Source: Xestospongia bergquistia
Lineage: Eukaryota > Porifera > Demospongiae > Haplosclerida > Petrosiidae
NCBI GenBank assembly: GCA_963965975.1
Contig: OZ014411.1
Coordinates: forward strand, 26,894,249-26,958,248
Length of the DNA stretch: 64,000 nucleotides
Direction: 5' to 3'
Shown: positions 19,948 to 62,843 of the stretch, one piece after another
How positions within the stretch are numbered: position 1 is the stretch's first letter
Layout: each line of letters starts with the position of its first letter
Made by a program: the position numbers and the translations under genes
The notes under the pieces: model-generated
The model's database searches: none
The model's input: only the letters and a program-made list of their open reading frames with translations
What the model was told of the DNA's origin: nothing

Positions 19948-21534
19948 ATGGCTAAAGGAGCCAGTGATTATAAGTATCATTTCATTAATTCTCCTCCTGA
20001 TGATGTCGTATGTCCTCTGTGTCTAGATATTGTAGAAGAGCCATATCAATTTACTTGTTGTGGTCAACATATCTGTAAAAAATGTAAAGACAAGTTCAAA
20101 CAACAGGCCACTACAACAAGGACTAATACTTCACGCCAGACTCGAAAGTGCCCAATGTGTCGACAAAGTAAGTATTCAATGTTACCTGATAAATATTTTG
20201 AACGTAATACTCTTAACAAGTTGTTGATATGGTGTTCTGAGGGATGTGGTCAAGAGATAGAACTTGGTCGACTAAAAAGCCACTTATCTCAATGTCCTTG
20301 TATTGAACTAGATTGTCCTAATGGGTGTGGTTTGAAGGTCCAAGGTCAGTACATGGCAGAACATAAGGAGAAATGTCCAAAACGTCCTTTTATTTGTTGT
20401 TATTGTAAATATCAGTCAACGTATGAGGTGGTAGTTAATGAACATCATCCAGTTTGTGACAAGTATCTCATGATTTGTCCTAATAAGTGTTCTGAAGATG
20501 AAATAGAGCGAGGGCTATTACCAGATCATCTTGAAAATTGTCCCGATCAAGTGTTAGAATGTGAGTTTAGTCATGTAGGATGTCATGAGAAGATTCGTCG
20601 TTGTGATCTATCAAAACATCAGTCCGAGCAAGGTTCCTATCATAATGCTCTTTACTTTAAAGTAATCTATGAAAGTTTGCAAATGACAAATAAAATGAAA
20701 GATGAGCTGTTACAAGAGAAGGACAAACAGCTACAAGAGAAAGATGCTCAACTGTTAGAAAAAGATAAAGAATTAAAGGAAATGTTGAGACGGCTAGAAG
20801 AAAAAGATGAAGGAGTTGTAAAGAAATTTAAGAAATTAAAAGAAGCAATGGAGCATAAAGACAAGCAATTACTGGAAATAGGTCAACAACTTATTGATAA
20901 AGATAAAGATCTACAAGAGCAACTAGTAAAAAAAGATAAGGAATTGGAAAAAACTGTGCAACAGAAAAATCAATTGCTAAGTGAAAAGGACAAGGAAATT
21001 AGTTGGAGAGACAAGCAGTTACGAGATAAAGATGATAAAATGCATACCATATTGAACCGATTTAGTAAGTTGCAATCAAGAGTTGTTGGTGATACTGTTC
21101 TATCTGTTGGAATGATAAACTTCAAAGATAAGAAAAATCATGCTGTTCAATGGTTTAGTCCTTGTTACTTTACACGTCCATTTGGTTATAGAATGTGCTT
21201 TCAAGTGAATTTCCACTATTGTTTTTTTCCACACGAATCATTGTGTGTATACTCTCACATGATGATAGGTCCTTATGATGATCATCTTTTGTGGCCATTT
21301 ACTGGTAAACTCATTGTACGTCTCCTTGATCAGTGTGGTGATGATCATTATGATTACTTTTTTGATTATACAAAAGGTAACAAGGGTAAAAGAGTTCGTG
21401 ATGCAGAGCGAGGTGAATACATGGCAAGTCAAAGCTCATACCTTCCATTTAGTCAACTACACTACAACCCTTTCACCAACTGTAAATACTTAGAAAATGA
21501 TTGTCTCTTTTTTTCAGTTATAATATTACAATAA
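19948..21534 (+). CDS. TRAF-like RING / TRAF-zinc-finger / coiled-coil / MATH protein
   Basis: Single-exon gene of 528 aa with complete TRAF order. A RING finger (about residues 22-72) begins CPLC, has CCGQHIC in the middle and ends CPMC. TRAF-type zinc fingers span about 95-215 with repeated Cys/His pairs. A charged heptad-like coiled coil with repeated EKDK(E/Q) blocks spans about 240-380. A C-terminal TRAF/MATH domain (about 385-525) contains WFSPCYFTRPFGYRMC and WPFTGKLIVRLLDQ. TRAFs are cytoplasmic adaptors and E3 ubiquitin ligases downstream of TNF and Toll/IL-1 receptors; that role here is inferred. The ATG gives a short lead into the RING. An AATAAA overlaps the stop codon. The gene sits in a local duplication with a relic just downstream. 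Confidence 0.9.
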   Translation: MAKGASDYKYHFINSPPDDVVCPLCLDIVEEPYQFTCCGQHICKKCKDKFKQQATTTRTNTSRQTRKCPMCRQSKYSMLPDKYFERNTLNKLLIWCSEGCGQEIELGRLKSHLSQCPCIELDCPNGCGLKVQGQYMAEHKEKCPKRPFICCYCKYQSTYEVVVNEHHPVCDKYLMICPNKCSEDEIERGLLPDHLENCPDQVLECEFSHVGCHEKIRRCDLSKHQSEQGSYHNALYFKVIYESLQMTNKMKDELLQEKDKQLQEKDAQLLEKDKELKEMLRRLEEKDEGVVKKFKKLKEAMEHKDKQLLEIGQQLIDKDKDLQEQLVKKDKELEKTVQQKNQLLSEKDKEISWRDKQLRDKDDKMHTILNRFSKLQSRVVGDTVLSVGMINFKDKKNHAVQWFSPCYFTRPFGYRMCFQVNFHYCFFPHESLCVYSHMMIGPYDDHLLWPFTGKLIVRLLDQCGDDHYDYFFDYTKGNKGKRVRDAERGEYMASQSSYLPFSQLHYNPFTNCKYLENDCLFFSVIILQ

Positions 21535-24720: not shown

Positions 24721-25792
24721 AAATGTCAGGAGACAACCAGAACGTTATCAAAAGGCCAGTTTACTTATTTATGAGGTCACTAACATTATGTGGTTTGGAA
24801 AAACAAGTTAATGTGGTCTCAAGCATCAAAATTGATAATAATATTCATAATATGACATATTCAGGAAAAATGGCTTGTGAGTAGGAGGAAAGTTACACAA
24901 TGTCAAACTTTGCAATGACTAGAGTAAAGGCGGGGGTATCTGGACAAACTTTTTTTCGAGTAGCTATTCACCTATTGCCTGACTTTTCAGTATTTTCTTT
25001 TGATATTGTTGGATAATAGAACTATTATACTATATTATAGGTACTAATATTAATACTATTCGTAGTCTTTTCACTGGATCACATTACAGCAGCTTGGGCA
25101 TTAAGAGGTGTGTACATGTCATGGGATTAGCTTGGATCATATTACAACAGCTTGGGCATTAAGAGGTGTGTACATGTCACGAGACTAGCTTGGATCATAT
25201 TACAACAGCTTGGGCATTAAGAGGTGTGTACATGTATAAACAGATGACACAAAGGAACTACAACTTTAAACCCTTCTTCAATTACACCAGTGCAAGTAGC
25301 AAAAAGGATTGTCACATCACAAACTTCTCAAGGTATTACTAACACAGTATAAAAATTTCTGAATAAGTGTGGCTGTCAAGTACAATGCAAAGAGTGTAGA
25401 ATTTGCCCTCATGATAACTTATTTACCTTGTACATAAGACTACTACAACTGCTATACTTTAAAAACGACATTTCAGAGACATCTGATAACTACTCCTATT
25501 TTATCAACATACTCTTGTGACAAGATGCTAATGTCAACAAAAATATCTTTTATCAGCAAACTTCATGGACTAGAATGAACACTGTAAAGACCTCACACCA
25601 TATCTATAGCTAATAAACACCTTCAAGCAGCAATCACAGTCGTAAAAGCTATCTCACACAATACCTATCTATTGTTAATAATCATTTACGCCAATAAACG
25701 GTCTCAAATATTTCATAGTCATTATACTTTTACAGCAATACACTGAAAACAGATAGCATTTAATGACAAATTATAAATGACAATTATATAAA
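24721..25792. other. Non-coding region with 58-bp repeats
   Basis: Includes the 58-bp repeat array at 25077-25245. A GAACACTGTAAAGAC stretch at about 25576 is shared with about 29098. No gene is seen. Confidence 0.5.
25077..25245. repeat. 58-bp tandem repeat, array 1 (about 2.9 copies)
   Basis: Units begin GGATCATATTACAACAGCTT and contain GTGTACATGTCA. The same unit forms array 2 at 29142-29473, in the same orientation. Confidence 0.95.
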
Positions 25793-29141: not shown

Positions 29142-29473
29142 TTTGTACTTGTCATGAGACTAGCTTAGATCACATTGCAAGAGCTTGGGTATTAAGAGAT
29201 ATGTACATGTCACAGGACTAGCTTGAATTGTATTATAACAGCTTGGGTATTAAGAGGTGTGTACATGTCATTGGACTAGCTTGGATCATATTACAACAGT
29301 TTGGGCATTAAGAGGTGTGTACATGTCATGGGACTAGCTTGGATCATATTACAACAACTTGGGCATTAAGAGGTGGGTACATGTCATGGGACTAGCGTAG
29401 ATCACATTACAGCAGCTTGGGGATTAAGAGGTGTGTACATGTCATTGGACTAGCTTGGATCATATTACAGCAG
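29142..29473. repeat. 58-bp tandem repeat, array 2 (about 5.7 copies)
   Basis: Same unit as array 1 (TTACAACAGCTTGGGCATTA, GTACATGTCATGGGACTAG). It ends about 30 bp upstream of a TATA-like box and 95 bp upstream of the ATG at 29568, so it may act as a promoter element. Confidence 0.95.
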
Positions 29474-29501
29474 CCTCTCCGGTAACTTGCGACGAACATG
29501 A

Positions 29502-37300: not shown

Positions 37301-38417
37301 TGGATACAGAAAGTTGGTGACGCTAACACTTGTTTCATTTAAATATTCTTTTTTATCCCCCAAAAAGAAATTATAACTACTAGAAAGTTGAAGCATATAC
37401 AAGTATCATTTTATTGTTAGAAAAAAATTCGGTTCTATAGAGTTTATATACCATGGCTCACGTATACAAAGGCAAAGGTTCTTCTTTGAAAGAACGCCTT
37501 GACTTCTAGCTCTAAGTACTGGTGAATACACTCTAAAAACTGGGATGTGATGTTCACACAAGGGTAGTGTTAATTTCACATCTGTTAGCACTCACACATA
37601 GGTTGTAACTAGGACATCATTTGAAATTGTGTCACATTCATACAATATATTTGTGATTGACCCACAAAGATACCGTACTCATACATTTTAGCCAAGTTTA
37701 AAAGTTACAGGCTATATGAAAACCTTAGAGCAAGGTCTTTCCTAGCATGATCCATTATTTTGTGAGCATAGACTCCAGTTCAACTCAATTTGAAGAGAGT
37801 ATAGATATTATGTATTTTCTAATAATAAAATTGATGGCTTACATCTTTGAATTATAATAAGTCAGTGATCAAACTTGAACAATTGAACAGAGTACATTTA
37901 TAGTGGGCTGGACTTTTCCTTGTTGCTTCACAAAAAGGGTCTAGAAAAATCACATAAAACTTAAATGTATTATAATAATTAAAAACATTAGTGTGACCTT
38001 AGGTAGATCCTTTTTGCACATCAGTAAAGGTGAGGGTTAATTTAATGGACTAATTGTATATTTTATAATAGGTAAAGTCATTTCTATTGCATTTAAATGT
38101 TTGTTTGTTATACTAGCTTGAAGAATTCTCATAATTAAATTTGTAATTAAATTTGTTTTATGTTCTTTGTAAATAAAATAATGTCTGCATACTGCCAACA
38201 AACCTTGTGTACAATTAAACAATTTTTTTTAAAAGTACTATAATAATAAATTAGTACTAGAGATCCCAGTTTTAGTAAATTGATTTAATTCTGCATACAT
38301 TTTGCCAATCCTATTAATAATGAATTATTATAAGCCTACTGGAGATACTTCTGAGTATAGTTAACTACAACAACATTTATATACAATATTTGTGTACATT
38401 CAATTTTCTTTAGAAAC
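34343..38417. other. Long non-coding stretch upstream of the ZU5-UPA gene
   Basis: A roughly 75-bp tandem repeat with TATGTATATTATTATATATTC lies at about 35370-35500. A GC-richer segment at about 36225-36480 ends with a strong donor (AAATAC|GTAAGTTC at 36332). This segment could be the promoter and 5' UTR exon of the gene whose coding part starts at 38418 or 39145. No protein domain was recognised; short open frames here are not supported. Confidence 0.4.
35320..35500. repeat. Tandem repeat of about 75 bp
   Basis: Copies share ATGTATATTATTATATATTC followed by ATAGTCACTGTRGTRTTCATAT-like sequence at about 35380-35430 and 35450-35500, with a diverged copy before them. Confidence 0.8.
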
Positions 38418-39190
38418 ATGGCTACAGGACAGACTGAGAGTGAAAGAAATCCCATTGTAAAAATCACATAAAACTTAAATATATTATGATAATTAAAAAC
38501 ATGGAAGCCTATGACACTAATGATTTCACTTTTCAGTTCTTATTGGCTACATTTGAAGATAAAAACACTTTTAAACTTATAAGTACAGATATCTAGAGTC
38601 ATAAAACAGTCACACCTTGATACTGAACATCTAACAGGTTCTTTTCCTTTATGCAAACAAGATACTAGCATATAAACAATTGTTATAATAACATGCTCTT
38701 TCAATCTGTCTATACTACTAAGAATCTGATCTGGTTGGTCAATTGAACTGACCCTTTATGCACATCAGTAAAGAGGATGGTTAACTGATGGACTAATAGT
38801 AAATTTTATATCTGGTAATTATGAACTTACTTTTTTTGCATATGTGTTTGTTACGGTATAGCTAGCTTGAAAAATTCTTATAAAATCATGTGTTTTCATG
38901 TTCTTCGTAAATACTGCCAACAAAAATATGTACAATTATACTAATTTCTTCAAGAGTACTATGATAACAAATTAGTACTAGAGCTCCCAGCTTTAGTAGA
39001 TTGTTTTCTGCATACATTTTGCCAACCCATTTAATAATGTATTATTATAAGTCTGCTATAGAACCCTCTTGACTATGGCTAGCTACAACAACATAAAAAT
39101 TATTTATATATCATCTCTGTGTGCATTAAATGTTCTTTAGAAACATGGCTACAAGACAGGCTGAGAAGGAAAAAAAGCCGACTGTAAGTT
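37945..39190. repeat. Tandem duplication carrying the first coding exon
   Basis: Two units of about 510-740 bp share long stretches, for example ATCACATAAAACTTAAAT, then ACACATCAG-like TGCACATCAGTAAAG, AAATTAGTACTAGAG and a CTGCATACATTTTGCCAA block. Each unit ends with a TTCTTTAG acceptor and a 39-nt coding exon (38418-38456, 39145-39183). Confidence 0.85.
38418..38456 (+). CDS. Alternative first coding exon (1a) of the ZU5-UPA gene
   Basis: After a TTTTCTTTAG acceptor the exon encodes MATGQTESERNPI and ends in phase 0 at a GTAAAA donor. It has the same length and phase as exon 1b (MATRQAEKEKKPT). Used in series, the AAACATGG lead of exon 1b would be read as AAA CAT GGC and hit a TGA, so the two can only be alternatives. 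Confidence 0.5.
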
Positions 39191-40328
39191 TACTAATTAA
39201 AAACTTAATTTTGCATAAATAAAAATTGTAAGTATCAATACTATATGTGACTGGTTATAAACTCCATGCACAAGCAGCACAAGACTTTCCACGAAATTGT
39301 AATATATAAATACCCCTCCCTGGCTTACATATAAACTAAACCTGTTGGTTATTTGTAGCGTTTGAAACTCTGAATAAATGGACTGCATTGTTATGCTTAG
39401 TTCTCTCGATTATTATATAATTGTGTTACTATTGTACTCACAAAAACTTGTGTAAGTATTTTTTTTATAAACAACTGTTGTCACACTGCAGGAGTGAGCA
39501 TTTTGGCTTGACTCATTTTTCCTTTAAATGAAATAATTGATTAGATATCATGGCGTATGACAAGGTCATCCAGAATAGTTTCTAATTTTAACAAGTGTGT
39601 AAGGTTTCGTGTGAATGATAGTAGATATGGGATTGTGGGTGTGAACGTGGGTGTAGGTTTGACCAATAGTAATTTTAATTTAAGGCAATAAAATATCCAA
39701 TCAATTAAAATTGAACATGATGTCATATTTGTCCATCCACCCACACAAATATTCTCCAATTCTATAGAAATATACCATATACGTTTACTTCTTTTCAAAA
39801 ATATACCATTTTCTTTACTTTAATGATATTTTAAATCAAGGTTAAAGATATAACCTTTGGAATTTACCCTAGTCACCACAATAATAAAAAGCATTGAATA
39901 ACGTCTTTTCAAGGTTTATCTTCATATCTGTTGTGGCAATCAAGTTTAATTACTAGTTCCATAATAATTTTGATTATGACATAAAGTATTCAGTTCAGAT
40001 CAAAATAGGAACCGTATCCTCATTTATTGAAATAACAATTTTAACATAGTACCAAGCTTACAGTGTGGTCAGTAACTGTTTATGTTCCATCATTACAACA
40101 ATGTATTACATACTCTGATTATAGCAGAGCTTAATAGTAACTTTGTTTATAATAATGAATTTAAAAGGATAAATTATGAACAAAAAAATGGAAAAAGTTG
40201 ATTAACTGTTTAACAAGCCTTTGAGCAATCTTTCAGCAATGCAGTGAACTGATTAATAAAACTACAAATATCTGTACCTAAACTTAAATAGTGTGGTTGA
40301 CAACTTTTAGATAGTTCAGTTTACCAAT

Positions 40329-40371
<43 letters not shown>

Positions 40372-43300
40372 TATATATATATGTATTACTTATGACACTT
40401 GGGTAGTATCTACATATATACTAAAAGAGCTGGTATAATCTCAAGCACTATGGCCTTTTGGACTGTAAATCAGTAACAATTGTAAGCATGAGTAATGACT
40501 ACATACATCTATACAATATGTTTATAGTTATAGTCTATTTCATGTTTTTCTTTTAATATTTAACCTTACTACCTGGTATATGGATCCATTTTATAAAAGC
40601 AAATAAGTGAATCTATTGTCATACAAAAAAGTAAAAATAGCTAAGTAATAGGGTTATCGTCATAGTTTGTTTAACCCTTTTATTTCTTTCTCTACTCGTA
40701 TATTTGATGTTACTACCTGACATTTGGATGTGTTATATAATAGTTGGTACGTTTGATTTATTATAGTATAATAAGTAAATGTTATTTAATAAAATATAGT
40801 TATTGTCATAGTTTCTTTAACCTTTCTGATTCTTTTTCTACCTTTATATTTGATGTTACTACCTGACATAAAGATGTCTTATATAATAGCAGGTAATTTG
40901 ATTTATTGCAGTGAATAAGTAACTACTAATTAATAAAATATGGTTATTGTCATTGTTTGTTTAACCCTTTTGGTTCTTTCTCTACCTTTATATATGATAT
41001 TACTATCTGACATATGGATGTGTTATGTAATAGTTGGTAAGTTTGATTTATTGTAGTATAAGTAAGTATTAACAAATGAAATGTGGCATTGTCATAGTTT
41101 GTTTAACTCTTTTGTTTCCTTATCCACCTTTATATATGATATTACTATTTGACATATGGATGTATTATGTAATAGTTGGTAAGTTTGATTTATTGTAGTA
41201 TAATAAGTAAGTATTAACAAATGAAATATGGCATTGTCATAGTTTGTTTAACTCTTTTGTTTCCTTATCCACCTTTATATTTGATGTTACTACCTGACAT
41301 ATGGATTTGTCATATAATAGCGGGTAAGTTTGATTTATTGTAGTATAATAAGTAACTATTAATTAATGAAATATGTTTATTGTCATGGTTTGTTTAACAC
41401 TTTTGTTTCTTTCTCTACCTTTCTATATGATATTACTATCTGACATATGGATGTATTATGTAATAGGAGGTAAGTTTGATTTATTGTAGTATAATAAGTA
41501 ACTACTAACAAATGAAATATGGCATTGTCATAGTTTGTTTAACCCTTTTGTTTCTTTCTCTACCTTGATCTATGATATTACTATCTGACATATGGATGTA
41601 TTATGTAATAGTTGGTAAGTTTGATTTATTGTAGTATAAGTAAGTATTAACAAATGAAATATGGCATTGTCATAGTTTGTTTAACCCTTTTGTTTCTTTC
41701 TTTACCTTTATATGATATGTTAATATCTGACATAATGACGTATTATATAATAGTGGGTAAGTTTGATTTATTGTAGTATAATAAGTAACTACTAATTAAT
41801 AAAATATGGTTATTGTCATAGTTTGTTTAATCCTTTTGTTTCTTTCTCTACCTTTATATGATATATTACTACCTGACATATGGATGTATTATATAATAGT
41901 TTGTAAGTTTGATTTATTGTAGTGTAACAAGTAACTATTAATTAACGAAAAATGGTTATTGTCATAGTTTGTTTAACTCTTTTGTTTCTTTATACACCTT
42001 TATTTTTGATGTTACTATCTGACATATGGATGAATTATATAATAGTTGGTAAGTTTGATTTATTGTAGTATAAAAAGTAAGTATTAACAAATGAAATATG
42101 GCATTGTCATAGTTTGTTTAACTCTTTTGTTTCCTTATCCACCTTTATATTTGATGTTACTACCTGACATATGGATTTGTCATATAATAGTTGGTAAGTT
42201 TAATTTATTGTAGTATAATAAGTAACTATTAATTAATGAAATATGGCATTGTCATAGTTTGTTTAACTCTTTTGTTTCCTTATCCACCTTTATATTTGAT
42301 GTTACTACCTGACATATGGATGTGTTATATAATAGCCAGTAAGTTTGTATATTGTAGTATAATAAGTAACTATTAATAAATGAAATATGTTTATTATCAT
42401 AGTTTGTTTAACTCTTTTGATTTTTTTTTACCTCCTTTATATTTAATGTTACTACCTGACATATGGATGTGTTATATAATAGGGAGTAAGTTTGATTTAT
42501 TGTAATATAATAAGTAACTATTAATTATGAAATATATTCTTATCATTAGTTTTTTTTACAATTTTGTTTCTTTTTCCACCTTTTTATTTAATGTTACTAC
42601 CTGACATATGGATATCTTATATAATAGCCTGTAAGTTTGGTTTATTGTAACATAATAAGTACCTATTAATTAATGTAATATGGTTATTGTCATAGTTTGT
42701 TTAACACTTTCGTTTCTTTCTTTACCTTTATATTTAATGTTACTACCTGACATATGTATATGTTATATAACAGTGGGTTAGTTTGATTACTGTAGTATAA
42801 TAAGTAAATATAGTTAACGAAATATGTTTCTTATCATAGTTTTGTTTAACTCTTTTGTTTCTTTTTCCACTTTATATTTAATGTTACTACCCGACATATG
42901 GATGAATTATATAATAGTTGGTAAGTTTGATTTATTGTAGTTTAATAAGTAATTATTAATTATAGAAATATGGTTATTGTGATAGTTTATTTAGCCCTTT
43001 TGTTTCTTTCTTTACTCTTATATTTGATGTTACTACCTGACATATGGATGTGTTATATAATAGCCTGTAAGTTTGATTTATTGTAGCATTATAAGTTACT
43101 ATTAATTAATAAAATATGGTTATTGTCATAGTTTGTTTAACACTTTTGTTTCTCTCTTTACCATTATATTTGATGTTACTCCCTGGCATATCGATGTATT
43201 ATATAATAGTGGTAAGTTTGATTTATTGTTGCCAAATAAGTAACTATTTATTAATGAACTATAATTATTTTCATACTTTGTTTAACAATTTTGTTTCTAT

Positions 43301-46300
43301 TACTACCTTTATATTTGATGTTAATACCTGACATATGAATGTGTTATATAATAGCTGGTAAGTTTGATTTATTGTAGTATAATAAGTAACTATTAATTAA
43401 TGAAATATAGTTATTGTCATAGTTTGTTTAACAATTTGCTTCTCTCTCCATGTTTATATTTGTTGTTACTAACTGACATATGGATGTTCTATATAATAGT
43501 GGGTAAGTTTGATTTATTGTAGTATATTAAGTAAGTATTAATTAATGGCATATCTATATTGTCATAGTTTGTTTACTTCTCTCTCTATGTTTATATTTGA
43601 TGTTAATACCTGAAACATGGATGTGTTATATAATAGGAGGTAAGTTTGATTTATTGTAGTATAATAAATACCTTTCAATTAATGAAATATTGTTTTTGTC
43701 ATAGTTTATTTAACCCTTGTATTTCTTTCTCTACCTTTATATTTGATTTTACTACCTGACATATAGATGTCTTATATAATAGAAGGTAAATTTGATGTAT
43801 TGCAGTTAATAAGTAACTATTAATTAATAAAATATAGTTATTGTCATAGATGATTTAACCTATTTTTTCCTTTTCTACCTTTATATTTGATGTTACTACC
43901 TGACATATGGATGTATTATATAATAGAAGGTAAGTTTGATTTATTGTAGTATAATACGTAACTAAAAATTAATAAAATATGGTTATTGTCATAGTTTGTT
44001 TAACCCTTTTGTTTCTTTCTCTACCTTGATCTATGATGTTACTATCTGACATATGGATTTATTATATAATAGAAGGTAAGTTTGATTTATTGTAGTATAA
44101 TAAGTAACTATTAATTAATTAGTTAATGTCATGGTTTGTTTAACCTTTTTCATTTTCCACCTTTATATTTGATGTTACTACCTGACATATGGATGTATTA
44201 TATAATAGGAGGTAAGTTTGATTTATTGTAGTGTAACAAGTAACTATTAATTAACGAAAAATGGTTATTGTCATAGTTTGTTTAACTCTTTTGTTTCTTT
44301 ATCCACCTTTATATTTGATGTTACTTCCTGACATATGGATGAATTATGTAATAGCGGGTAAGTTTGATTTATTGTAGTATAATAAGTAACTATCAATTAA
44401 TACAAAATATGGTTATTATCATAGTTTGTTTAACAATTTCTTTTCTATCACCATGTTTATTTTAATGTTATTACTTGACATACGATATATTATAAATAGG
44501 AGGTAAAGTTGATTTATTGTTGTATAATATATAACTATTTACATATAAAATATGGTTATTTGTCCACCTTTATATTTGATGTTACTACTTGTCATATGAT
44601 ATATTTAAAATAGTAGGTAAGTGTGATTTATTGTTATATTAATAATAATAATAAGTACCTATTAATTAATTAAATATGGCAATTGTCATAGTTTATTTGA
44701 TCTTTTGTTTTCTTTTCCACTTTTATATTTGATATTACTATGTGACATATAAATGTATTATATAATAGTTGGTAAGTTTGATTAATTGTAGTAGACTACA
44801 TAAGTATTGTTTTAATTAATGAAGTATGTTTATTATCATAGTTTGTTTAACAATTTTGTTTTTATCTCTAATTTAATATTTGATGTTACTACCTTACATT
44901 TGGATGTGTTATATAATAGTCAGTAAGTTTGATTTATTATAGTATAATAAGTAACTATTAATTATGAAATATGTTTATTATCATAGTTTGTTTAACTCCT
45001 TTGTTTTTTTTTACCTCCTTTATATTTAATGTACTACCTGACATATGGATGTGTTATATAATAGGGAGTAAGTTTGATTATTGTAGTATAATAAGTAACT
45101 ATTAATTAATGAAATATGTTTATTATCATAGTTTATTTAACTCTTATGTTTCTTATTCCACCTTTATATTTGATGTTACTACCTGACATATGGATGAATT
45201 ATATAATAGTTGGTGAGTTTAATTTATTATAGTATAATTAGTAACTATTAATTAATGAAATATGGTTATTGTCATAGTTTATTTAGTCCTTTCTTTTCTA
45301 TCTCTACATTTATATTTGATATTACTACCTAACATATGGATGTTTTATATAATAGCCTGTAAGTTTGCTTTATTATAGTATAATAATTAACGAAATGTAG
45401 TTATTGTTATAGTTTGTTTAATCCTTTTGTTACTTTCTCTATGTTCATGTTATTACCTGACATATGGATATCTTATATAATAGCCTGTAAGTTTGGTTTA
45501 TTGTAACATAATAAGTACCTATTAATTAATGTAATATGGTTATTGTCATAGTTTGTTTAACACTTTCGTTTCTTTCTTTACCTTTATATTTAATGTTACT
45601 ACCTGACATATGTATATGTTATATAACAGTGGGTTAGTTTGATTACTGTAGTATAATAAGTAAATATAGTTAACGAAATATGTTTCTTATCATAGTTTTG
45701 TTTAACTCTTTTGTTTCTTTTTCCACTTTATATTTAATGTTACTACCCGACATATGGATGAATTATATAATAGTTGGTAAGTTTGATTTATTGTAGTTTA
45801 ATAAGTAATTATTAATTATAGAAATATGGTTATTGTGATAGTTTATTTAGCCCTTTTGTTTCTTTCTTTACTCTTATATTTGATGTTACTACCTGACATA
45901 TGGATGTGTTATATAATAGCCTGTAAGTTTGATTTATTGTAGCATTATAAGTTACTATTAATTAATAAAATATGGTTATTGTCATAGTTTGTTTAACACT
46001 TTTGTTTCTCTCTTTACCTTTATATTTGATGCTACTCCCTGGCATATCGATGTATTATATAATAGTGGTAAGTTTGATTTATTGTTGCCAAATAAGTAAC
46101 TATTTATTAATGAACTATAATTATTTTCATACTTTGTTTAACAATTTTGTTTCTATTACTACCTTTATATTTGATGTTACTACCTGACATATGAATGTGT
46201 TATATAATAGTTGGTAAGTTTGATTTATTGTAGTATAATAAGTAACTATTAATTAATGAAATATAGTTATTGTCATAGTTTGTTTAACAATTTGCTTCTC

Positions 46301-49300
46301 TCTCCATGTTTATATTTGTTGTTACTAACTGACATATGGATGTTCTATATAATAGTGGGTAAGTTTGATTTATTGTAGTATAATAAGTAAGTATTAATTA
46401 AGGGCATATCTATATTGTCATAGTTTGTTTACTTCTCTCTCTATGTTTATATTTGATGTTAATACCTGAAACATGGATGTGTTATATAATAGGAGGTAAG
46501 TTTGATTTATTGTAGTATAATAAATACCTTTCAATTAATGAAATATTGTTTTTGTCATAGTTTGTTTAACCCTTGTATTTCTTTCTCTACCTTTATATTT
46601 GATTTTACTACCTGACATATAGATGTCTTATATAATAGAAGGTAAATTTCATGTATTGCAGTTAATAATAACTATTAATTAATAAAATTTAGTTATTGTC
46701 ATAGATGATTTAACCTATTTTTTTCCTTTTCTACTCTTTATATTTGATGTTACTATCTGACATATGGATGTATTATATAATAGAAGGTAAGTTTGATTTA
46801 TTGTAGTATAATACGTAACTAAAAATTAATAAAATATGGTTATTGTCATGGTTTGTTTAACCCTTTTGTTTCTTTCTCTACCTTGATCTATGATGTTACT
46901 ATCTGACATATGGATTTATTATATAATAGGAGGTAAGTTTGATATATTGCAGTAAATAAGTAACTACTAATTAATAAAATATGGTTATTGTCATTGTTTG
47001 TTTAATCCTTTTGTTTCTTTCTCTACATTTATATGATATATTACTACCTGACATATGGATGTGTTATGTAATAGTTGGTAAGTTTGATTTATTGTAGTGT
47101 AACAAGTAACTATTAATTAACGAAAAATGGTTATTGTCATAGTTTGTTTAACTCTTTTGTTTCTTTACACACCTTTTTATTTGATGTTACTATCTGACAT
47201 ATGGATGAATTATATAATAGAAGGTAAGTTTGATTTATTGTAGTATAATACGTAACTAAAAATTAATAAAATATGGTTATTGTCATGGTTTGTTTAACCC
47301 TTTTGTTTCTTTTTCTACCTTGATCTATGATGTTACTATCTGACATATGGATTTATTATATAATAGGAGGTAAGTTTGATTTATTGCAGTAAATAAGTAA
47401 CTACTAATTAATAAAATATGGTTATTGTCATTGTTTGTTTAATCCTTTTGTTTCTTTACGCACCTTTATATTTGATGTTAGTACCTGACATATGGATGAA
47501 TTATGTAATAGCGGGTAAGCTTGATTTATTGTAGTATAATAAGTAACTATTAATTAATGAAGTATGCTTATTGTCATGGTTTGTTTAACCTTTTTGTTTC
47601 CTTATTCACCTTTATATTTGATGTTACTACCTGACATATGGATTTGTCATATAATAGCGGGTAAGTTTGATTTATTTTAGTATAATAAGTAACTATTACT
47701 TAATGAATTATGTAATTGTCATAGTTTGTTTAACCTTTTTGTTTCCTTATTCACCTTTATATTTGATGTTACTACCTGACATATGGATTTGTCATATAAT
47801 AGCCAGTAAGTTTGTATATTATAGTATAATAAGTAACTATTAATTAATGAATTATGGTTATTATAATAGTTTGTTTAACAATTTTGTTTCTATCTTCTTG
47901 TTTATTTTTGATGACATTACATGACATGTGATGTATTTTAAATAGGAGGTAAGGTTGATTTATTGTTGTATAATACATAACTATTTACTTATAAAATATG
48001 GTTATTTGTCCACCTTTATATTTAATGTTACTACCTGACATATGGATGAATTATATAATAGTTGGTAAGTTTGATTTATTGTAGTATAGTAAGTAACTAT
48101 TAATTATGAAATATATTCTTATCATAGTTTGTTTAACTCTTTCTTTTCTTTTCCACTTTTATATTTGATATTACTATGTGACATATGGATGTATTATATA
48201 ATAGTTGGTAAGTTTGATTTATTGTAGTGTAATAAGTAACTATTAATTATGAAATATATTCTTATCATAGTTTATTTAACAATTTCGTTTTAATCTCTAC
48301 TTTTATATTTGATGTTACTTCCTGACATATGGATGAATTATATAATAGTTGGTAAGTTTGATTTATTGTAGTATAGTAAGTAACGATTAATTATGAAATA
48401 TATTGTTATCATAGTTTGTTTAACTCATTGGTTTCTTTTTCCACCTTTATATTCAATGTTACTACCTGACATATAAATGTATTATATAATAGCAGGTAAG
48501 TTTGATTTATTGTAGTATAATAAGTAACTATTAATTATAAAAAATATATTCTTATCATAGTTTGTTTAACAATTTCGTTTCAATTTCTACTTTTATATTT
48601 GATGTTACTTCCTGACATATGGATGAATTATATAATAGTTGGTAAGTTTGATTTATTGTAGTATAATAAGTAACTATCAATTAATAAGAAATATGGTTAT
48701 TATCATAGTTTGTTTAACAATTTCTTTTCTATCACCATGTTTATTTTAATGTTATTACTTGACATACGATATATTATAAATAGGAGGTAAAGTTGATTTA
48801 TTGTTGTATAATACATAACTATTTACTTATAAAATATGGTTATTTGTCCACCTTTATATTTGATGTTACTACTTGTCATATGATATATTTAAATAGGAGG
48901 TAAGTGTGATTTATTGTAAAATTTTATAATAATAATAAGTACCTATTAATTAATTAAATATGGCAATTGTCATAGTTTATTTGATCTTTTGTTTTCTTTT
49001 CCACTTTTATATTCAATGTTACTACCTGACATATAAATGTATTATATAATAGCAGGTAAGTTTGATTTATTGTAGTATAATAAGTAACTATTAATTATAA
49101 AAAAATATATTCTTATCATAGTTTGTTTAACAATTTTGTTTCTATCTCTACTTTAATATTTGATGTTACTACCTGACATATGGATGTGTTATATAATAGT
49201 CAGTAAGTTTGATTTATTATAGTATAATAAGTAACTATTAATTATGAAATATGTTTATTGTCATAGTTTGTTTAACTCTTTTTTTTACCTCCTTTATATT

Positions 49301-52300
49301 TAATGTTACTACCTGACATATGGATGTGTTATATAATAGCCTGTAAGTTTGATTTATTGTAGTATAATAAGTAACTATTAATTAATGAAATATGTTTATT
49401 ATCATAGTTTATTTAACTCTTATGTTTCTTATTCCACCTTTATATTTGATGTTACTACCTGACATATGGATGAATTATATAATAGTTGGTAAGTTTAATT
49501 TATTATAGTATAATAAGTAACTATTAATTAATGAAATATGTTTATTATCATAGTTTATTTAACTCTTATGTTTCTTATTCCACCTTTATATTTGATGTTA
49601 CTACCTGACATATGGATGAATTACATAATAGTTGGTAAGTTTAATTTATTATAGTATAATTAGTAACTATTAATTAATGAAATATGGTTATTGTCATAGT
49701 TTATTTAGTCCTTTCTTTTCTATCTCTACATTTATATTTGATATTACTACCTAACATATGGATGTTTTATATAATAGCCTGTAAGTTTGCTTTATTATAG
49801 TATAATAATTAACAAAATATAGTTATTGTTATAGTTTGTTTAATCCTTTGTTACTTTCTCTATGTTTATATTTCATGTTATTACCTGACATATGGATATC
49901 TTATATAATAGCCTGTAAGTTTAATTTATTGTAGTACCTATTAATTAAAGAAATATGGCTATTGTCATAGTTAGTTTAATGTTTTTGTCTTCTTTTCCAT
50001 CTTTATATTTAACGTTACTACCCGACATTTTGATGAATTATATAATAGTTGGTAAGTTTGATTTATTGTAGTATAATAAGCAATTATTAATTAATAAAAT
50101 ATGGTTATTGTCATAGTTTATTTAGCTCTTTTGTTTCTTTATTTACCTTTATATTTGATGTTACTACGTGACAAATGGATGAATTATATAATAGTTGGTA
50201 AGTTTGATTTATTGTAGCATAATAAGTACCTATATTAGTTAAAGAAATATGGATATTGTCATAGTTTTTTAACACTTTTGTTTCTTTCTTTACCTTTACA
50301 TTTGATGTTACTACCTATCGTATCGATGTATTATATAATAGTCGTAAGTTTGATTTATTGTTGCAAAATAAGTAACTATTTATTAATGAAATATAATTAT
50401 GATCATACTTAGTTTAACAATTTTGTTTCCATTACTACCTTTATATTTGATGTTACTAACTGACATATGAATCTGTTATATAATAGTTGGTAAGTTTGAT
50501 TTAATTGTAGTATAATAAGTAACTATTAATTAATGAAATATGTTTATTGTCATAGTTTGTTTAACAATTTTGCATCTCTCTCCATGTTTATATTTCATGT
50601 TATTACCTGACATATGGATATCTTATATAATAGCCTGTAAGTTTAATTTATTGTAGTACCTGTTAATTAAAGAAATGATATTTTTTAATATTTTTGTCTC
50701 CTTTTCCACCTTTATATTTGATGTTACTACCTGACATATGGATGTGCTATATAATAGCGGGTAAGTTTGATTTATTGTAGTATAATAAGTAACTATTAAT
50801 TAATGGCATATCTATATTGTCATAGTTTGTTTACTTCTCTCTCTATGTTTATATTTGATGTTAATACCTGACATATGGATGTGTTATATAATAGTTGGTA
50901 AGTTTGATTTATTGTAGTATAATAAGTAACTATTAATTAATAAAATATGGCTATTGTCATAGTTTGTTTAACAATTTTTTTATATCTCCATTTTTATTTT
51001 TGATGTTACTACCTGACATATGGATATGTCATATAATAGCAGGTAAGTTTGATTTATTATAGTATAATAAGTTACTATTAATTAATGAAATATGGTTATT
51101 GTTATAGTTTGTTTAAAATTTTTTTTCTATCTATATGTTTATATTTGATGTTACTACCTGACACATGGGTCTTTTATATAATAGGAGGTAAGTACTTTAC
51201 TGTAGTGTAATAGGTCACTATTAATTAATAAAATATGCATGACTATTGTCATAGTTTGTTTAACAATTTTTTTATATCTACATCATTATTTTGATGTTAC
51301 TACCTGACATGTGGATGTATGATATAATAGCAAGTAAGTTCGTTTTATTGTATTATAATAAGTAACTGTTAATTATGAAATACTTTTCTTATCATAGTTT
51401 GTTTAACAATTTTTTTATATCTCCATTTTTATTTTTGATGTTACTACCTGACATATGGATCTATTATATAATAGGAGGTAAGTTTTACTTATTGTAGTAT
51501 AATAAGTACCTTTTAATTAATAAATTATGTAATTGTCATAGTTTGTTTAACTTTTTGTTCCTGAAACAAATGCTATACACTTTTGATGTTTACGGTAATA
51601 TCATAATAATTAGAGTAGATGTTTGTTATATATTTAAATATATCATGATGAAGTAATCCATAAAATATATTGACTATACATATATTATGTACTGTAGTTA
51701 GTAATTTACATCAAAGTCAATACCAAACAGTATAATTTAGGCAATGGTGGAAAGTGCTTTGTTTGTTACTACAAGTGATATGGCTTGAATAACAAACTTA
51801 TGGACCACTAGTCTAAGCGTAGAACTGAACTCATCATATTTCCAGTTTGGTCTTCATTTGACTAAACAAATTGTACTCTATGGTATTTTTCATATATAGC
51901 TTCAAATATACAAACCACTTATACCATAGTCTAATGTGGTTATTGTATATATAATATATATATGTATTTATTAAGTGTTCATATTTTGGGGGTGGACAAT
52001 TTTATAATATATTGTTATAATGCTTACTTCAATCTTTTATATTCTCTCTTGTCTAGAAAATGGGATTAAGAGGTCAGTACTGACTGTCTCATATAATTCG
52101 TATCGTATCGTTTTGTATTAACACAACCAACAAAATTTCTGTCCATTATGAAAGTATATAGTTAGTTATAATCTGAGTGTTGTAATAATTGAAATATTTT
52201 TACAACACCTGTATAATTTAACTATTTATATTAAAGTATGTCTGAAGATTAAGTTGTTAATCATTTGTCAATATTACGTGTACATTTAAATCTATTTCAG

Positions 52301-55300
52301 TTACAAGTGATATATTCCAAATAGCTAGTAACTATAGCTAGATGTATAATATTTTCTGTCAATGTATTATTTGACTTGTCTGTCACTCTTGCTTGCCTAT
52401 CACCTTAATTCTTTAAAGATCTTGAAGATGAACAACATACACTCAAAAAGACTAGTAATGGTATAGAAAGTAAAGTTTCAGAGAAAGTACAGAAGACAGA
52501 AACTACTTCTTTCAGTTTACAACTGGGTAAGAGAGACATACCGATTGAGCTTCAACAAAGCTTTTTTTTGAAAGGTAACATGTGTGTGTGTGTGTGTGTG
52601 TGTATTACTGTGTAACAATGGTACTTATCATTATGCCATACTGTTACTAGCATTAGACTTAGCAGTCATATCAAAGGCTCAGGATTTGTTAACTAATGAA
52701 GAACTGGAAAAAACACAAACAAAGACCAGAGAAGAAGAGTCTACACTGTCTAACAAAGAAAGAAAAGGTATGTTAACAACTGATATTAATCTTGTGATTA
52801 CTTTTGTAATATAAGAATTGAAGGATCAGTTAGAGGATCCATTTGAAGATGACCATGATATATTTCTTTCATCTACTAGTAAATGTAAGTTTTATTATAC
52901 AGGTATATATTACTAATGTGTTTTTCATAGTTACTGAATTGTCTGTTGATCAACAAAATACAGAGCATGATGCATTGATTTCACAGCTAAAAGAGAAAGA
53001 CAAACAAATTAAGAAGTTACAACAACATTTGAAAGGTAATAGATATTGCTGATAATTGTTACTTATTGCTATATGAAGTTCTGTGTATACTATATCTGTA
53101 TAATGTTTCTACATAGAAATGAAACAAACAAAAGTTAAAGATTTAAATTTTTATCTGAATCAAATGGAAGGTATAACAAATAGACAAAATATTATTTTAT
53201 ATATATACATGTATATACTTTCTTTTAATCATTCATATGATTTTATGTGGCTCACTATAGACAATCTTGAAGGTGTTATTCCAGCTGGAGACACACTTTT
53301 TCTTCTCCGAGGAAGTAGTCAGTCTCAATTTTTTAACTGGGAGAAATATGGATTGTCCTTATCTGCACCAGAAGGAATACTACCTCCATCAGAGACTTGT
53401 GAAGTGACTATCACTGCTCTTGCTGGAGGAGAATTTGAATTCCCTAAAGGCAGTGAGATTGTCAGTGCTGTTTATGCCATTTCTATTTCAAAGCCACTAC
53501 TAAAACCACTCACTATCAATATACAACATTGTGTAGCACTAGAGACACCAGAACAATGTAATTCTCTTCAGTTTGTGAGAGCACCACTCAATAATGGGAT
53601 ACCTCCTTATAAGTTCAAATGTTTTCCAGGAGGACATTTTACACCAGGAAGTCAATATGGCTCTATTTCTTGCCTTCAATTTTGCGAGTTTGGTATTGTA
53701 ATGAAAGGAGACGAAGGAGAAGAAGATAACACATCAGGTGAGGAAGATGGTAGCTCACAGGAGAATGAAGACCCTCCTAACAATGAAGATAGGGAAACAG
53801 ATAACGACATGGATCAACTACCAAATGACAATAGTCTGGAACATTCTGAAGGTATCTATCAATATAGCTACCCATTTATAAAATATAGCTAGCCATTTAT
53901 AAAAATAAGAAAGTGATGATTCATCAAATTGAAATGTATTGTCTATACTATAGAAACAGAAAAGAGGGAAAATGACGAAGTCCACCCTAAATTGATAATG
54001 GGAGAAAATGGTAAAAGAGAAGAAGAAGAAGGGGGACAAGAAGAGGATGAAGAAGGAGACAGAGGTGGAGAATACAATGAAAGTATAGGAGAAGAGCCTA
54101 AGAGTAAGAATGAAGGAGATCAACATCAGTTAGAAGATCAGAGAGTGGGAGAGGAAGAACAAGAATTTATTACAACACAAGAGGGTGAGAATTCAATAAT
54201 ACAATAATTAAGAAAACAAATATCATAGCTGATCAAAAACTATTGACTAAAATTATAACTATGTGCTCTTTATTTTGTGTATGTTGTTATTTTATATCTA
54301 GAATCAGAAAATGTACAAGACAAAGTTCATCCTAAGCCCCCTAAGCCACTTCCAAGGACTCGCAATTTTATAAAGAATGAAGGAAATGTGGAAAGTGATG
54401 AAGTTCATCTCAAACCATTAAAAATAATTAGTGCATCACCAAAGGGTACATAACATTAGTAACCTTCATAACTATTGCACATTTCAGCTTCTACTAAATC
54501 TATTAAAAAGGCTGACATTCTTTATTTCTGTAAAGTTTACTATGAAGAAAAAGCTATGTTGCAATGGCAGGTGATGTTAACAGTTGTGAGACGTCTCAAT
54601 GTACTTTTACAAGTAATGTTATTGTGTATTAATACATTAAATATTTAATGTAATTATTTTAGTACATGGAATTAAAACATCCTAATGCTGAGGAAGGTCA
54701 GACACTGAATGATTTAAAACTGTTACAAGATAGCATTGAATTTGACTTCAGTCAGAGAGCTCCTCAAGGATGGAGAGTCTTGCCTCAAATAGAGCCTGGC
54801 ATGGTGAGAAAGTTTCTCTTTAGTAAACAGCTGCTAGTAGAATATTACTAATTTTTTTCAGCTATCCTATACCTCTATTTACAAATTTGGAAGTACTGAT
54901 CATCCTCTGCCTCCATCTTGTTTGGTAGACGTATTTGCAGATCAAAAACCCGATACAGAAGAGGTACTCTATTATGATGTTCCAGTACTAGGAATTAAAC
55001 CACAGTACAAAATACGCATTACTCGATCTCTTAGGCCTTTAGCAGGCGCTGTTTCAATATCTGTGAAAAGTAAGGGAAACATTTTACATATAGATCTGTT
55101 CATGTGTGCATTATCCAGAAGATGTACAGTCAACTGGTGATGTTGAAAAAGTTAAGAAAGAGATACAGAAAGTTCTTAAACAGTGCTTCTCAAAATTAGA
55201 CATTTTGTTGAGAGAATCTTTACAGCAAATTGCTACAGATATGTTTTCTGCTGGTTTAGTGACACAGACCACCCAAAATGAACCAAATGTATCGAAAGTT

Positions 55301-60450: not shown

Positions 60451-62843
60451 CTACCAAGACGTTACTTTCAGCATCTGATATATAACAACAAGAGAAAGAG
60501 AAACAACTAGAGACTGAGAGAAACAAACCAATTAAGGAGTTAAGGCTTGATTTGAAAGGTAACTGGCTGACATAATACTAGTATACTGGTTTTCTTAACA
60601 AGCATAGTATTCCTGCTTATATTTAATATTTCTACAGACATAAAACAAAGGAAGATTGAAAGTTTCTCATCATTTCAGACTGAAAGAGAAGGTATATGAT
60701 ACTGAACAATTATTACAATGTGTACATGTAGTTTGGAATTGCTTCAACCATGTACTTTTATGCTAACTCATGCACTGTTGTAATTCTAGCTGGAGACACT
60801 CTTTTTCTATTTCAAGGGAGTAGTCAGCCTCAATATTTTAACTGGGAGAAATATGGATTATCCTTATCTGCACCAGAAGGAATACTACCTCCATCAGAGA
60901 CTTGTGAAGTGACTATCACTGCTCTTGCTGGAGGTGAATTTTAATTCCCTAAAGTCAGTGAGCTTGTCAGTGCTGTTCATGTCATTTCTGTTTCAAAACC
61001 TCTACTAAGACCACTCACTCTCAATATACAACATTGTGTATCACTAAAGACACTAGGACAATGTAAATTTCTTCAGTTTGTGAGGGCACCACTTATTAAT
61101 GAAACACTTCCATATCAGTTTGAAGTTCTTCCAGGAGGTCATTTTATTCCAGGAAACCAATATGGCTCCATTTCTTGTATGGATTTTAGTCTGTTAGGTA
61201 TTTACTTAGAATTGGAAAGCAATGAAGATAATGAAGACAGTGAAGAAGGTAGCACATCAGATGATGATAACTCAGAGCAAACTGAAGACCCTAATGTTAG
61301 CGAAGAAAATGATCAACTTTCTCAAGGTAGTAGTGTTACATAATCTGCTGTGTATACATGCATAAATATCATTGTTTGTCTGTGGCTTTATACACTAGAA
61401 AGTGAAAACTTAGAAGATGATGAAGTGAAACAGAAGCCATTACCAAAAAGAAATACAACTGTTAGTAGATCTCAAAATGGTAAGAAAAGTTTTGTATAAT
61501 CTTAACATTTTCCAATGTGTAATTTAGCTGCCACTAAACCAACTGAAAAGGCTGATATTCTTTATTATTGTAAAGTATATTATGAGGAAACTGATGATTT
61601 AGAATACAAATGGCAAATTATGTTCACAGTTGTTAAGTGTCTCAATGCACTTCAACAGGTTATAATATATACCATGTATAAATTGATTGTGCCCAATTAT
61701 ATCACCTCAGTATATAAAACAACGTTATCCTTGTGCTGAAGAAGGTCAGAAAATTGATTTAGACTTAAGCATACAAAATGACATTGAGTTTGATATTCAA
61801 AAGTATCATCATGAAATTCCTCAAGGTTGGATGATTATGCCTCAGACACAACCTCTCAGGGTAGGAAATTATACTATTATTTCCAATGTACTACAACATC
61901 AATTTTATCTTTTGTTCAGCTGAGCCACACTGCCATTAAAATGTTTGGAACTACTGGATATCCTGAGCCTCCAATGTGTTTTGTAGATGTATGTGCATAT
62001 CAGGGACCAGAGACAGCAAAGGTACTCCATTACTGCGTTCCAATTTTGGGAATTGAATTGAAAATTGCAGAATACATTAACTTATTTCTAAGGCAAAAAC
62101 CTCTAAAATGTAAGAAAAGTAGTCACAGTCTAATCATTCATAAAACATTTTCATACACTGAATGTCATCTTAAGTTCACAAGTTAAAGGTGCTGATTCTT
62201 TTTACAGTTATCATACAGGAATTAGCAGTGACATGTCAGATGAATCACAAAGCTCACCCTAGTGCATCAGAACAGTAGAATACAATGGAAGATATCTTGC
62301 AGGTTGATCATTAGTGATAATATAATTCATTAACTAACATCCAAAATTTTTGTTCATTAGCTATCTACTATTATGATGGAGTTTATTTCAAGAAAACAAT
62401 CACAAGAAGCAAAAGAAGAGTCAAAGCAGAAAAGAGAGAAAAATGATTGCTCTGATTCTATTCTAGTTATAATTACTACTGGTGATAGACTTGAAGACAT
62501 TAAAGGAATCATAAAGAATGTTCTTACTCGGTGGTACTCTCTTCTGAGTAAAGTGCTTATGAAATCTTTGAAGAAAATAGCAGCAGACATGTATTCTCAT
62601 GGTTTGATATCAGAATCAGTCAATGAAACTCCAGAGTTTAAAGAAATCATGTCAGAATTCCAATTAGGCATGGATGTCATACGCAATTATCAGAGATTAG
62701 TGAAACACTGCGAGTTGTTTTTACAGACTTTAATTGATCAACGTGGTCCACCGAAAGAAGCAGCCATTAACATAGCTGAAGAATGGACTGACAACATTAA
62801 AAGAAAATTGGATATAACTATAGAGTTTAACATCATTGTGTAA
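60451..62843 (+). pseudogene. Second ZU5-UPA copy with three in-frame stops
   Basis: Exons mirror the intact gene: 60451-60558, 60638-60691, 60790-61326, 61399-61479, 61528-61658, 61711-61860, 61920-62109, 62207-62300, 62361-62843. The ZU5 part (AGDTLFLFQGSSQ, LSAPEGILPPSE) is nearly identical to the intact copy but has TAA at 60942-60944 where the other gene has GAA. Other stops are TAA 60483-60485 in the coiled coil and TAG 62276-62278 before the last exon. The last exon is fully open (161 codons) and carries the helical C-terminal module (ADMYSHGLISESV, QRGPPKEAAINIAEEW). Splice sites are all preserved, so decay is recent, or truncated products are made. There is no microexon array upstream of this copy. 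Confidence 0.75.

Follow-up and report, generated by a model that had tools for sequence, protein, structure and literature searches.

Tandem arrays of candidate single-codon microexons in ankyrin- and Roc-COR-type genes of the sponge Xestospongia bergquistia

Described systems of very short or repeated exons

Several described systems generate sequence variety from short or repeated exons, or carry many similar introns. In Dscam-type mutually exclusive clusters, variety is obtained from tandem homologous exons, which are long, chosen singly and, in some cases, dependent on docking/selector pairing. Introners and introner-like elements are families of near-identical introns within one genome that occur as dispersed insertions. 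In recursive splicing, an acceptor is immediately followed by a donor used in the next step, and such ratchet points leave no nucleotides. The juxtaposed acceptors and donors of ratchet points lie within long introns (PMC8605326). The schistosome micro-exon genes (MEGs) are variable genes with numerous short exons, the lengths of which are mostly multiples of 3; 35 such genes, encoding secreted proteins, have been reported with 10–20 short exons per gene, mostly of 15 bp, and introns of 0.1–5 kbp, the minimum exon size being 6 bp in the text and the range 3–81 in the abstract of the same article (PMC10526429). Exons of one codon or less, for which stepwise intron removal by intron definition has been proposed, are represented by isolated cases, e.g., a 3 bp exon in Drosophila homothorax (PMC7392893) and a 1 nt exon in Arabidopsis APC11 (PMC4674806). 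The matches listed in a search of the open-access literature comprised single 3-nt exons, schistosome MEGs and introners, with no tandem codon arrays among them, and a term search of the available text of two articles on sponge and animal transcriptomes (PMC4432959, PMC6142364) showed the word microexon to be absent.

The window analyzed here, a 64,000-nt stretch of contig OZ014411.1, harbors an array that resembles each of these systems in part. The candidate exons are 3 nt long, in contrast to the MEG exons of 6–81 bp (mostly 15 bp), number up to 76 per array, alternate with near-identical introns at a median spacing of 145 bp (window) and exist in thousands of copies. They are arranged in tandem, unlike the isolated 3-nt and 1-nt microexons. 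In contrast to zero-nucleotide recursive sites, acceptor and donor are 3 nt apart in 2,748 exact cores, and each step along an array would leave one codon. The intron copies lie head-to-tail with one codon between them, whereas introners are dispersed. No common reverse-complement k-mer of ≥13 was found in the introns beside the window array (39184–40530 and 51601–52056), and choice by docking or selector pairing was rejected for it. It is probable from the sequence that thousands of units genome-wide, each resembling a full intron with a one-codon exon, allow long DNA to be spliced down to short, fast-changing peptides in ankyrin- and GTPase-type proteins.

The window array and its flanking exons

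The array comprises 76 intron-plus-codon units with an AG–GT core at positions 40530–51565 (+ strand; median spacing 145 bp), and tandem repeats of ~145 bp span 40647 to 51559. A profile HMM matched 77 units, all on the + strand. In the first of these, with the triplet at 40600 (CAA|ATAAGT), the donor G is altered and the unit was parsed as a 7-nt gap; both AG and GT are present in the remaining 76 of the 77. A first-pass annotation had described exactly three bases between AG and GT in 73 of the 76 units, with 14 kinds of triplet, and our recount gave the same figures. The first intact candidate microexon is TTG (40744–40746, + strand) and the last is GAG (51475–51477, + strand). The other three units have a 2-nt gap, namely, TG at 43210–43211, TG at 46066–46067 in a nearly identical unit, and TC at 50342–50343 in a unit that has unit-specific variants in common with both TG units (all + strand). 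The sole stop triplet, TAG (44614–44616, + strand), lies downstream of the first 2-nt unit and upstream of the second. With a loose motif set, a branch-like motif was detected in 75 of the 77 units at a median distance of 23 nt (range 10–31) from the acceptor AG, and the intervening bases were free of AG in 72 units, in agreement with the annotated unit anatomy. Column entropy was 0.0 and 0.0 bits at AG, 0.1 and 0.0 at GT and 1.8, 1.9, and 1.0 at the triplet; some intron columns reached 1.6–1.7 bits, and hence the third base of the triplet does not stand out in the window.

Upstream of the array, the start-codon exon MATRQAEKEKKPT (39141–39183, + strand; ATG at 39145) has a TTCTTTAG acceptor in front of it and, at its phase-0 end, is followed by GTAAGT. 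It reads MATR..., is rich in K/R and, by eye, is unlike an N-terminal secretion signal. Downstream, the exon AAAATGGGATTAAGAG (KMGLR; 52057–52072, + strand) starts in phase 0 and ends in phase 1, and the frame continues into the exon DLEDEQHTLKKTSNG... (52419–52526, + strand; boundaries by eye). Inspection by eye thus confirmed the earlier assignment of phase 0 to both array flanks, with the frame maintained on to 52419. The host gene had also been labeled ZU5-UPA, and this label proved weak: the ZU5-like exon (53261–53851, + strand; boundaries by eye) matched Pfam ZU5 only at E = 0.13, its score of 13 bits falling below the cutoff of 21, and UPA was not found. Structure prediction of this exon (input of two sequences; mean pLDDT 33.5) was of no use, and the PDB sequence search gave no match.

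Distribution and turnover of the units in the genome

The array had been regarded as a feature of one gene, which is too narrow since the core occurs genome-wide. The exact core TATAATAG-NNN-GTAAGT gave 2,748 matches in the genome compared with 5 for the backwards-read control, a difference that excludes chance genome-wide. The numbers were near background for gaps of 1–2 bases (26; control, 16) and of 4–6 bases (36; control, 28). One pattern searched for relatives in the viral contigs gave 0 exact matches. AG and GT, which bound the very short exon of a spliceosomal microexon, were both present in 741 of the 765 parsed units, and the gap was 3 nt in 689 of the 741. The exceptions included gaps of 2 nt (14 units) and 7 nt (12 units), the latter mostly representing a triplet plus a donor with an altered first base.

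Only 2 stops were observed among the 689 parsed triplets, as against 57 expected from within-array shuffles (minimum of 35 in 20,000). Among the exact cores genome-wide, TAA and TGA together occurred twice and TAG not at all, as compared with 159 occurrences of AGA, CGA, and GGA and 622 of the six VAR codons. The third base of the triplet was C in 19 of the 2,748 exact cores; C is poor as the last base of an exon. The gap and stop counts indicate that the frame is kept and stops are avoided, as in translated exons. Together with the fast triplet change, the fixed AG and nearly fixed GT, the second unit family and the phase-0 boundaries described below, they provide strong indirect evidence that each triplet is a translated single-codon exon.

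A second family, with 133-bp units, shares the splice signals and the 3-nt design of the first without significant sequence similarity to it. The gap was of 3 bases in 29 of 29 printed cores when 1–6 were allowed, and 59 exact matches were obtained (control, 0) with no stop. The triplet showed 1.3–1.6 bits, which is not above some intron sites (up to 1.7). Weak in-register HMM matches between the two families (best E, 0.022) make a distant common origin conceivable. The first-pass interpretation as single-codon microexons is strongly supported by the gap length, the avoidance of stops, the fixed AG and GT, the conserved phase-0 flanking exons of paralogues and this second family; nothing here demonstrates the combinatorial inclusion that it also proposed.

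The variability of the triplet relative to other unit positions, on which the annotation had staked its reading, was upheld by parsimony analysis, with 21 steps per triplet site in the window array, as compared with 3.7 for each distal intron site. The corresponding values in four other arrays were 17, 7.3, 7.7, and 5.0 against 0.92, 0.31, 0.38, and 0.26. Triplets therefore changed ~6–24 times faster than distal intron sites in the five arrays, in which AG showed 0 steps per site throughout, GT 0–0.5 and the triplet 5–21. Among near-identical unit pairs with unlike triplets, 2–3 bases differed in 96 of 127, although the pairs are not independent. Identical introns formed 56 groups with 146 copies; the left codon differed in 21 groups, the right in 18 and both in 11, and neither differed in 28.

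Roc-COR and ankyrin genes are among the host genes, and the exon boundaries that were read are in phase 0. Exons similar to the start exon were found at six loci besides the window (A2, A3, A4, A5, C1:9606k, and C1:9712k), and an exon like 52057–52072 follows the arrays at three of them (A3, A4, and A5). At C1:9606k, ankyrin exons are located between array blocks, with their ends in phase 0 where read. A4 and A5 showed 99.88% identity over 1,668 bp upstream of the arrays and carry 19 and 11 codons, respectively, in unlike strings. Identity falls to 92.5% in the Roc-COR exons of the two loci; the pair is a mosaic, and hence it does not cleanly date the codon changes. The codon sets are restricted per array, e.g., mostly CGA, GAA, and TTT at C1:9606k. 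A joined-ankyrin-exon query (150 of 5,240 candidates scored) revealed no processed copy of a spliced product; of at least 33 matches, 30 were single exons and three were contiguous at 46–48% identity, resembling other ankyrin genes, and the latter were rejected as processed copies.

Proposed splicing of the arrays and alternative explanations

It is likely that each unit represents a complete spliceosomal intron plus a one-codon exon and that the introns are removed successively, converting the array into an in-frame peptide. A unit would consist of a donor, a branch point, a pyrimidine-rich tract and an acceptor, followed by exactly one codon. Since the two splice sites of a 3-nt exon are too close together for simultaneous occupancy, successive removal by intron definition is the most likely route, and this is the model argued for tiny exons in PMC4674806. 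Once an acceptor has been joined, the donor 3 nt downstream would serve the next step, such that one codon is added per step. If all units were used, the peptide would have 75 residues in the window array and 71, 39, 19, and 11 at four related loci; that predicted for A5 reads RKHVHLIRDID. As each codon has a long homologous intron on either side, whole codons could be moved with the frame intact through unequal exchange or conversion; the length and sequence of the peptide would change quickly, and the splice signals would stay fixed. The peptides may serve in recognition or immunity.

If true, this would mean one-codon exons by the thousand and dozens of consecutive one-codon joins per gene, which challenges exon-definition ideas, and peptides that evolve by whole-codon moves, with introns as homology arms, in immune-like gene families. 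Neither standard gene prediction nor short-read alignment is well suited to one-codon exons, and hence the affected proteins may be misannotated; similar arrays could be hidden in other genomes. A further proposal, which we consider speculative and rather improbable, is that codon-by-codon spliceosomal peptides, through regulated or stochastic skipping, provide animal-, tissue- or cell-specific sets in ankyrin/Roc-COR and related proteins that serve in the recognition of self and non-self or of microbes, with the intron copies as handles for recombination through which the codon string continues to evolve in frame.

AT-rich tandem repeats are common, and the arrays might be a non-coding satellite that is not spliced, with a hypervariable 3-bp site serving another purpose or acting as a mutation hotspot. 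This is highly improbable and was rejected on the purging of stops and frameshifts and on the second family, in which the same splice signals and 3-nt gap recur without significant similarity; the absence of other gap lengths and the similar flanking coding exons also argue against it. An origin of the triplets as target-site duplications of a mobile element was rejected by reasoning alone, as it predicts equal triplets on both sides of a copy, which are often not seen. It is possible, though doubtful, that the arrays are passengers, i.e., tandem introns that multiplied through unequal crossing over and are tolerated since every copy is spliced out and leaves a single in-frame, non-stop codon, with a functionless peptide and selection only against stops, frameshifts and broken splice sites. 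The 3-nt length, the purged stops and the fixed AG and GT would then need no adaptive function, and the restricted codon sets, such as that at C1:9606k, look like copying. However, a neutral triplet should homogenize at the rate of its intron, which is at odds with the ~6–24-fold faster change, and arrays are found repeatedly in related N-terminal contexts as well as in ankyrin/Roc genes.

Alternatively, one codon or a random subset could be included per transcript, giving many peptides per animal in a somewhat Dscam-like manner. Any combination of 3-nt, phase-0 units would stay in frame, the acceptors and donors of an array are almost alike, and the purging of stops and frameshifts fits this explanation equally well. 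We nevertheless regard it as unlikely, since the neighboring units carry competent introns and nothing enforces a choice. Among 75 window units, no complementary k-mer of ≥13 was common to a flanking intron and ≥10 units; AT-rich reverse-complement k-mers of 11 and 12 were common to a flanking intron and up to 27 units. A role of RNA structure was also rejected, as folds of four unit-length stretches were no more stable than shuffles (z of 0.96, 0.77, 0.42, and −0.02).

In-order splicing is favored over combinatorial choice. All 76 window units together give 225 nt with an open frame; without the 2-nt units, the TAG would be read as a stop. Together, the three 2-nt units contribute 6 nt, and the sole TAG falls in their shifted frame. 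These units and the TAG are jointly harmless only under full inclusion, which slightly favors ordered full inclusion, although the test is weak (shuffle P of 0.13; 0.48 in a stricter test). With 76 nearly equivalent acceptors, it is difficult to see how skipping would be avoided, a point against full ordered inclusion. Of the units in the 42-unit C1:9606k block, three are without a GT donor and one with a 2-nt gap has no apparent partner, and the C4 array (L037) appears decayed.

Anatomy and genomic extent of the codon-unit arrays

The tandem array reported at 40530-51565 in the first-pass annotation was found to be real, repeating with a period of ~145 bp, and a unit profile run over the window confined its units to ~40.5-51.6 kb. 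The profile HMM recovered 77 units in place of the 76 claimed; the latter number holds for units having both AG and GT, and the first unit has a changed donor. The acceptor AG was present in 77/77 units and the donor was GTAAGT in 65/77. The reported three-base gap between AG and GT in 73 of 76 units, as well as the 14 kinds of triplet, were reproduced; the remaining three units have two bases, are copies of one another, and together contribute 6 nt. Elsewhere in the window, the same 58-bp minisatellite unit occurs twice (25075-25235 and 29144-29474).

The earlier assignment of this array kind to one gene does not hold, as it occurs genome-wide. In the 146.46 Mb searched (21 contigs), the exact core TATAATAG-NNN-GTAAGT was found 2,748 times (1,514 + 1,234) vs. 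five for the control, i.e., the pattern read backwards. This is a lower bound on unit number since the count took one exact motif. The same core with a gap of 1-2 bases occurred 26 times (control, 16), and gaps of 4-6 bases gave 36 matches vs. 28 in the control. Six of these 36 cores form one tandem repeat at C4:6885772-6886645, with copies 171 bp apart, wherein the 5-nt AGTTA, not a multiple of 3, separates TATAATAG from GTAAGT. Parsing of 19 regions, 18 taken from contig C1 and one from C4, gave 765 HMM matches, a few of them due to chance, e.g., three isolated ones ~6 kb beyond the array locus A2; AG and GT were present in 741, and 689 of those had the 3-base gap. The sample is skewed to C1 and to rare triplets or gaps, as positions were known for the first 100 of the 2,748 cores. 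At C4:3463500-3469499 (L037), the array has diverged and decayed in part; it includes recurring 2-nt GA units as well as TTT units that run into ATAAG.

The loose pattern TTTTAG-NNN-GTAAGT (119 genome matches; control, 40) led to a second unit family on contig C10, with 133-bp units of other sequence and the core TTTTTCAG-NNN-GTAAGTATGAA. When gaps of 1-6 bases and seven donor forms were allowed, the gap was three bases in 29/29 of the cores listed, one of which lay outside the repeat. The pattern TTYAG-NNN-GTAAGTATGAA gave 59 matches, all on the + strand (57 on C10 and two on C12; control, 0), and no stop triplet was found among these 59 exact cores; C10:1399506-1694026, of which the fetched region L038 is a part, holds 57 of them. 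Triplet variability in this family was not above that of some intron sites. Three first-family profiles showed no significant match to the second family (best E 0.43, 0.17, and 0.022), and the broadest of them (E 0.022) gave several weak matches in register with its units; the two families may have a distant common origin.

Triplets as probable codons and their variability

Judged from their composition, the triplets are probably read as codons. Among the 2,748 exact cores, TAA and TGA occurred once each and TAG was absent; their sequence neighbors AGA, CGA, and GGA totaled 159, and AAA, AAG, CAA, CAG, GAA, and GAG totaled 622. The parsed triplets included two stops in 689, vs. a mean of 57 and a minimum of 35 in 20,000 within-array shuffles. 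C occupied triplet position 3 in 19/2,748 cores, which is expected as this position precedes the donor, where C is disfavored as the last base. The 496 exact-core triplets of the fetched loci comprised 19 amino acids and one stop, with no Cys codon among them; in all parsed arrays, Cys codons were nearly missing (1/689 vs. 8.8 expected).

Variability was first compared in five arrays, the window (77 units) and the further loci A2 (71), A3 (39), A4 (19), and A5 (11). In A2-A5, the three triplet columns were the most variable of the unit, with AG and GT at 0.0 bits; in the window, triplet columns 1 and 2 had the highest entropy (1.8 and 1.9 bits), column 3 had 1.0, and some intron columns had 1.6-1.7. 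On trees built without the triplet, steps per triplet site were 21, 17, 7.3, 7.7, and 5.0 for the window and A2-A5, respectively, vs. 3.7, 0.92, 0.31, 0.38, and 0.26 per distal intron site. The 219 unit pairs with at most one difference outside the triplet, which are not independent, shared the triplet in 92 and differed in 127, of which 96 had 2-3 bases changed. The three bases of the triplet behave as one whole, since the distinct triplets summed over arrays numbered 213 vs. 349 in shuffles.

The loci A4 and A5 are 99.88% identical over the 1,668 bp preceding the arrays, and their codon strings differ (RKGHIMVVSDVVDGLRDER and RKHVHLIRDID, respectively). Identity falls to 92.5% in the Roc-COR exons of these two loci, which marks the pair as a mosaic by which the codon changes cannot be dated cleanly. 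In this comparison, 137-bp introns of identical sequence were found between unlike codons. Of the 621 introns between 3-nt units in all parsed regions, 146 fell into 56 groups with identical sequence; the left codon differed in 21 groups and the right codon in 18, including 11 groups with both, and 28 groups showed neither difference. The data fit exchange within introns that would move whole codons, and bear on codon movement, not on the origin of new codons.

ALTERNATIVES: probable splicing mode and competing explanations

Introns are probably removed stepwise along the arrays, as the two ends of a 3-nt exon are unlikely to be bound by factors simultaneously and as intron definition, with introns removed one after another, is argued for a 1-nt exon (PMC4674806). 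The first exon would be joined to an acceptor of the array, the donor three bases downstream would then be used for the next intron, and the cycle would repeat. Summed over all 76 window units, the inserts give 225 nt with an open frame, and the single TAG sits between the first and second 2-nt units. Together with the 2-nt units, this hints at inclusion of all units in order; it is a hint and not proof because permutations also reached an open frame, in 13% with all units shuffled and in 48% with only the 2-nt units moved. Against ordered inclusion, three units in one block of the array locus C1:9606k are missing the GT donor and just one has two bases; both unit types are present in other arrays too.

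Combinatorial inclusion of codons, as raised in the first-pass annotation, may operate instead and accounts equally well for the 3-nt rule. The arrays may also be a tolerated passenger satellite, which would account for the purging of stops but leaves the speed of codon change unexplained. A satellite without splicing, an improbable reading, would account for neither. The nearest known systems to such arrays are schistosome MEGs (PMC10526429), single 3-nt exons (PMC7392893), the 1-nt exon (PMC4674806), recursive splicing (PMC8605326), and introners. Tandem single-codon exons were described in none of the open-access titles and abstract beginnings among the matches listed.

Host genes and neighboring sequences

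An exon similar to the MATRQAEKEKKPT exon of the window precedes the arrays at A2, A3, A4, A5, C1:9606k, and C1:9712k, and the first exon before each array has 13 codons and ends in phase 0 (counted by eye). A KMGLR-like exon follows the arrays of A3, A4, and A5, and was not found by the same search after those of A2, C1:9606k, and C1:9712k. A3 and A5 run on into a 727-728 aa exon that matches Roc and COR-A. The gene at C1:9606k is of the ankyrin type: a pair of ankyrin exons (joint Pfam E 1.3e-17) recurs between codon-unit blocks of 1 to 42 units; the spacers are mostly 92-99% identical where alignable, and exon ends are in phase 0 as read in one spacer. A 1,455-aa ORF between two of its codon blocks (C1:9606000-9645999, - strand) is probably a retroelement, judged by eye. 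C1:9712k showed an ankyrin match and a Roc match slightly under the cutoff (24.8 vs. 27 bits). For the window gene, the ZU5-UPA label given earlier is tentative, as its ZU5-like exon reaches E 0.13 at best.

A paralog of this ZU5-like exon (61% identical) lies in a neighboring gene at 60945-61340. A second copy of the start exon (38375-38460; 83% over 86 nt) precedes the real one by 727 bp; its donor region is GTAAAA, and no array separates the two. Two near-copies of one ORF (14610-15194 and 17804-18232) begin like a low-molecular-weight phosphatase (FVCSGNTCRSP), and a TRAF-like ORF with zf-TRAF and MATH matches is positioned at 19945-21531.
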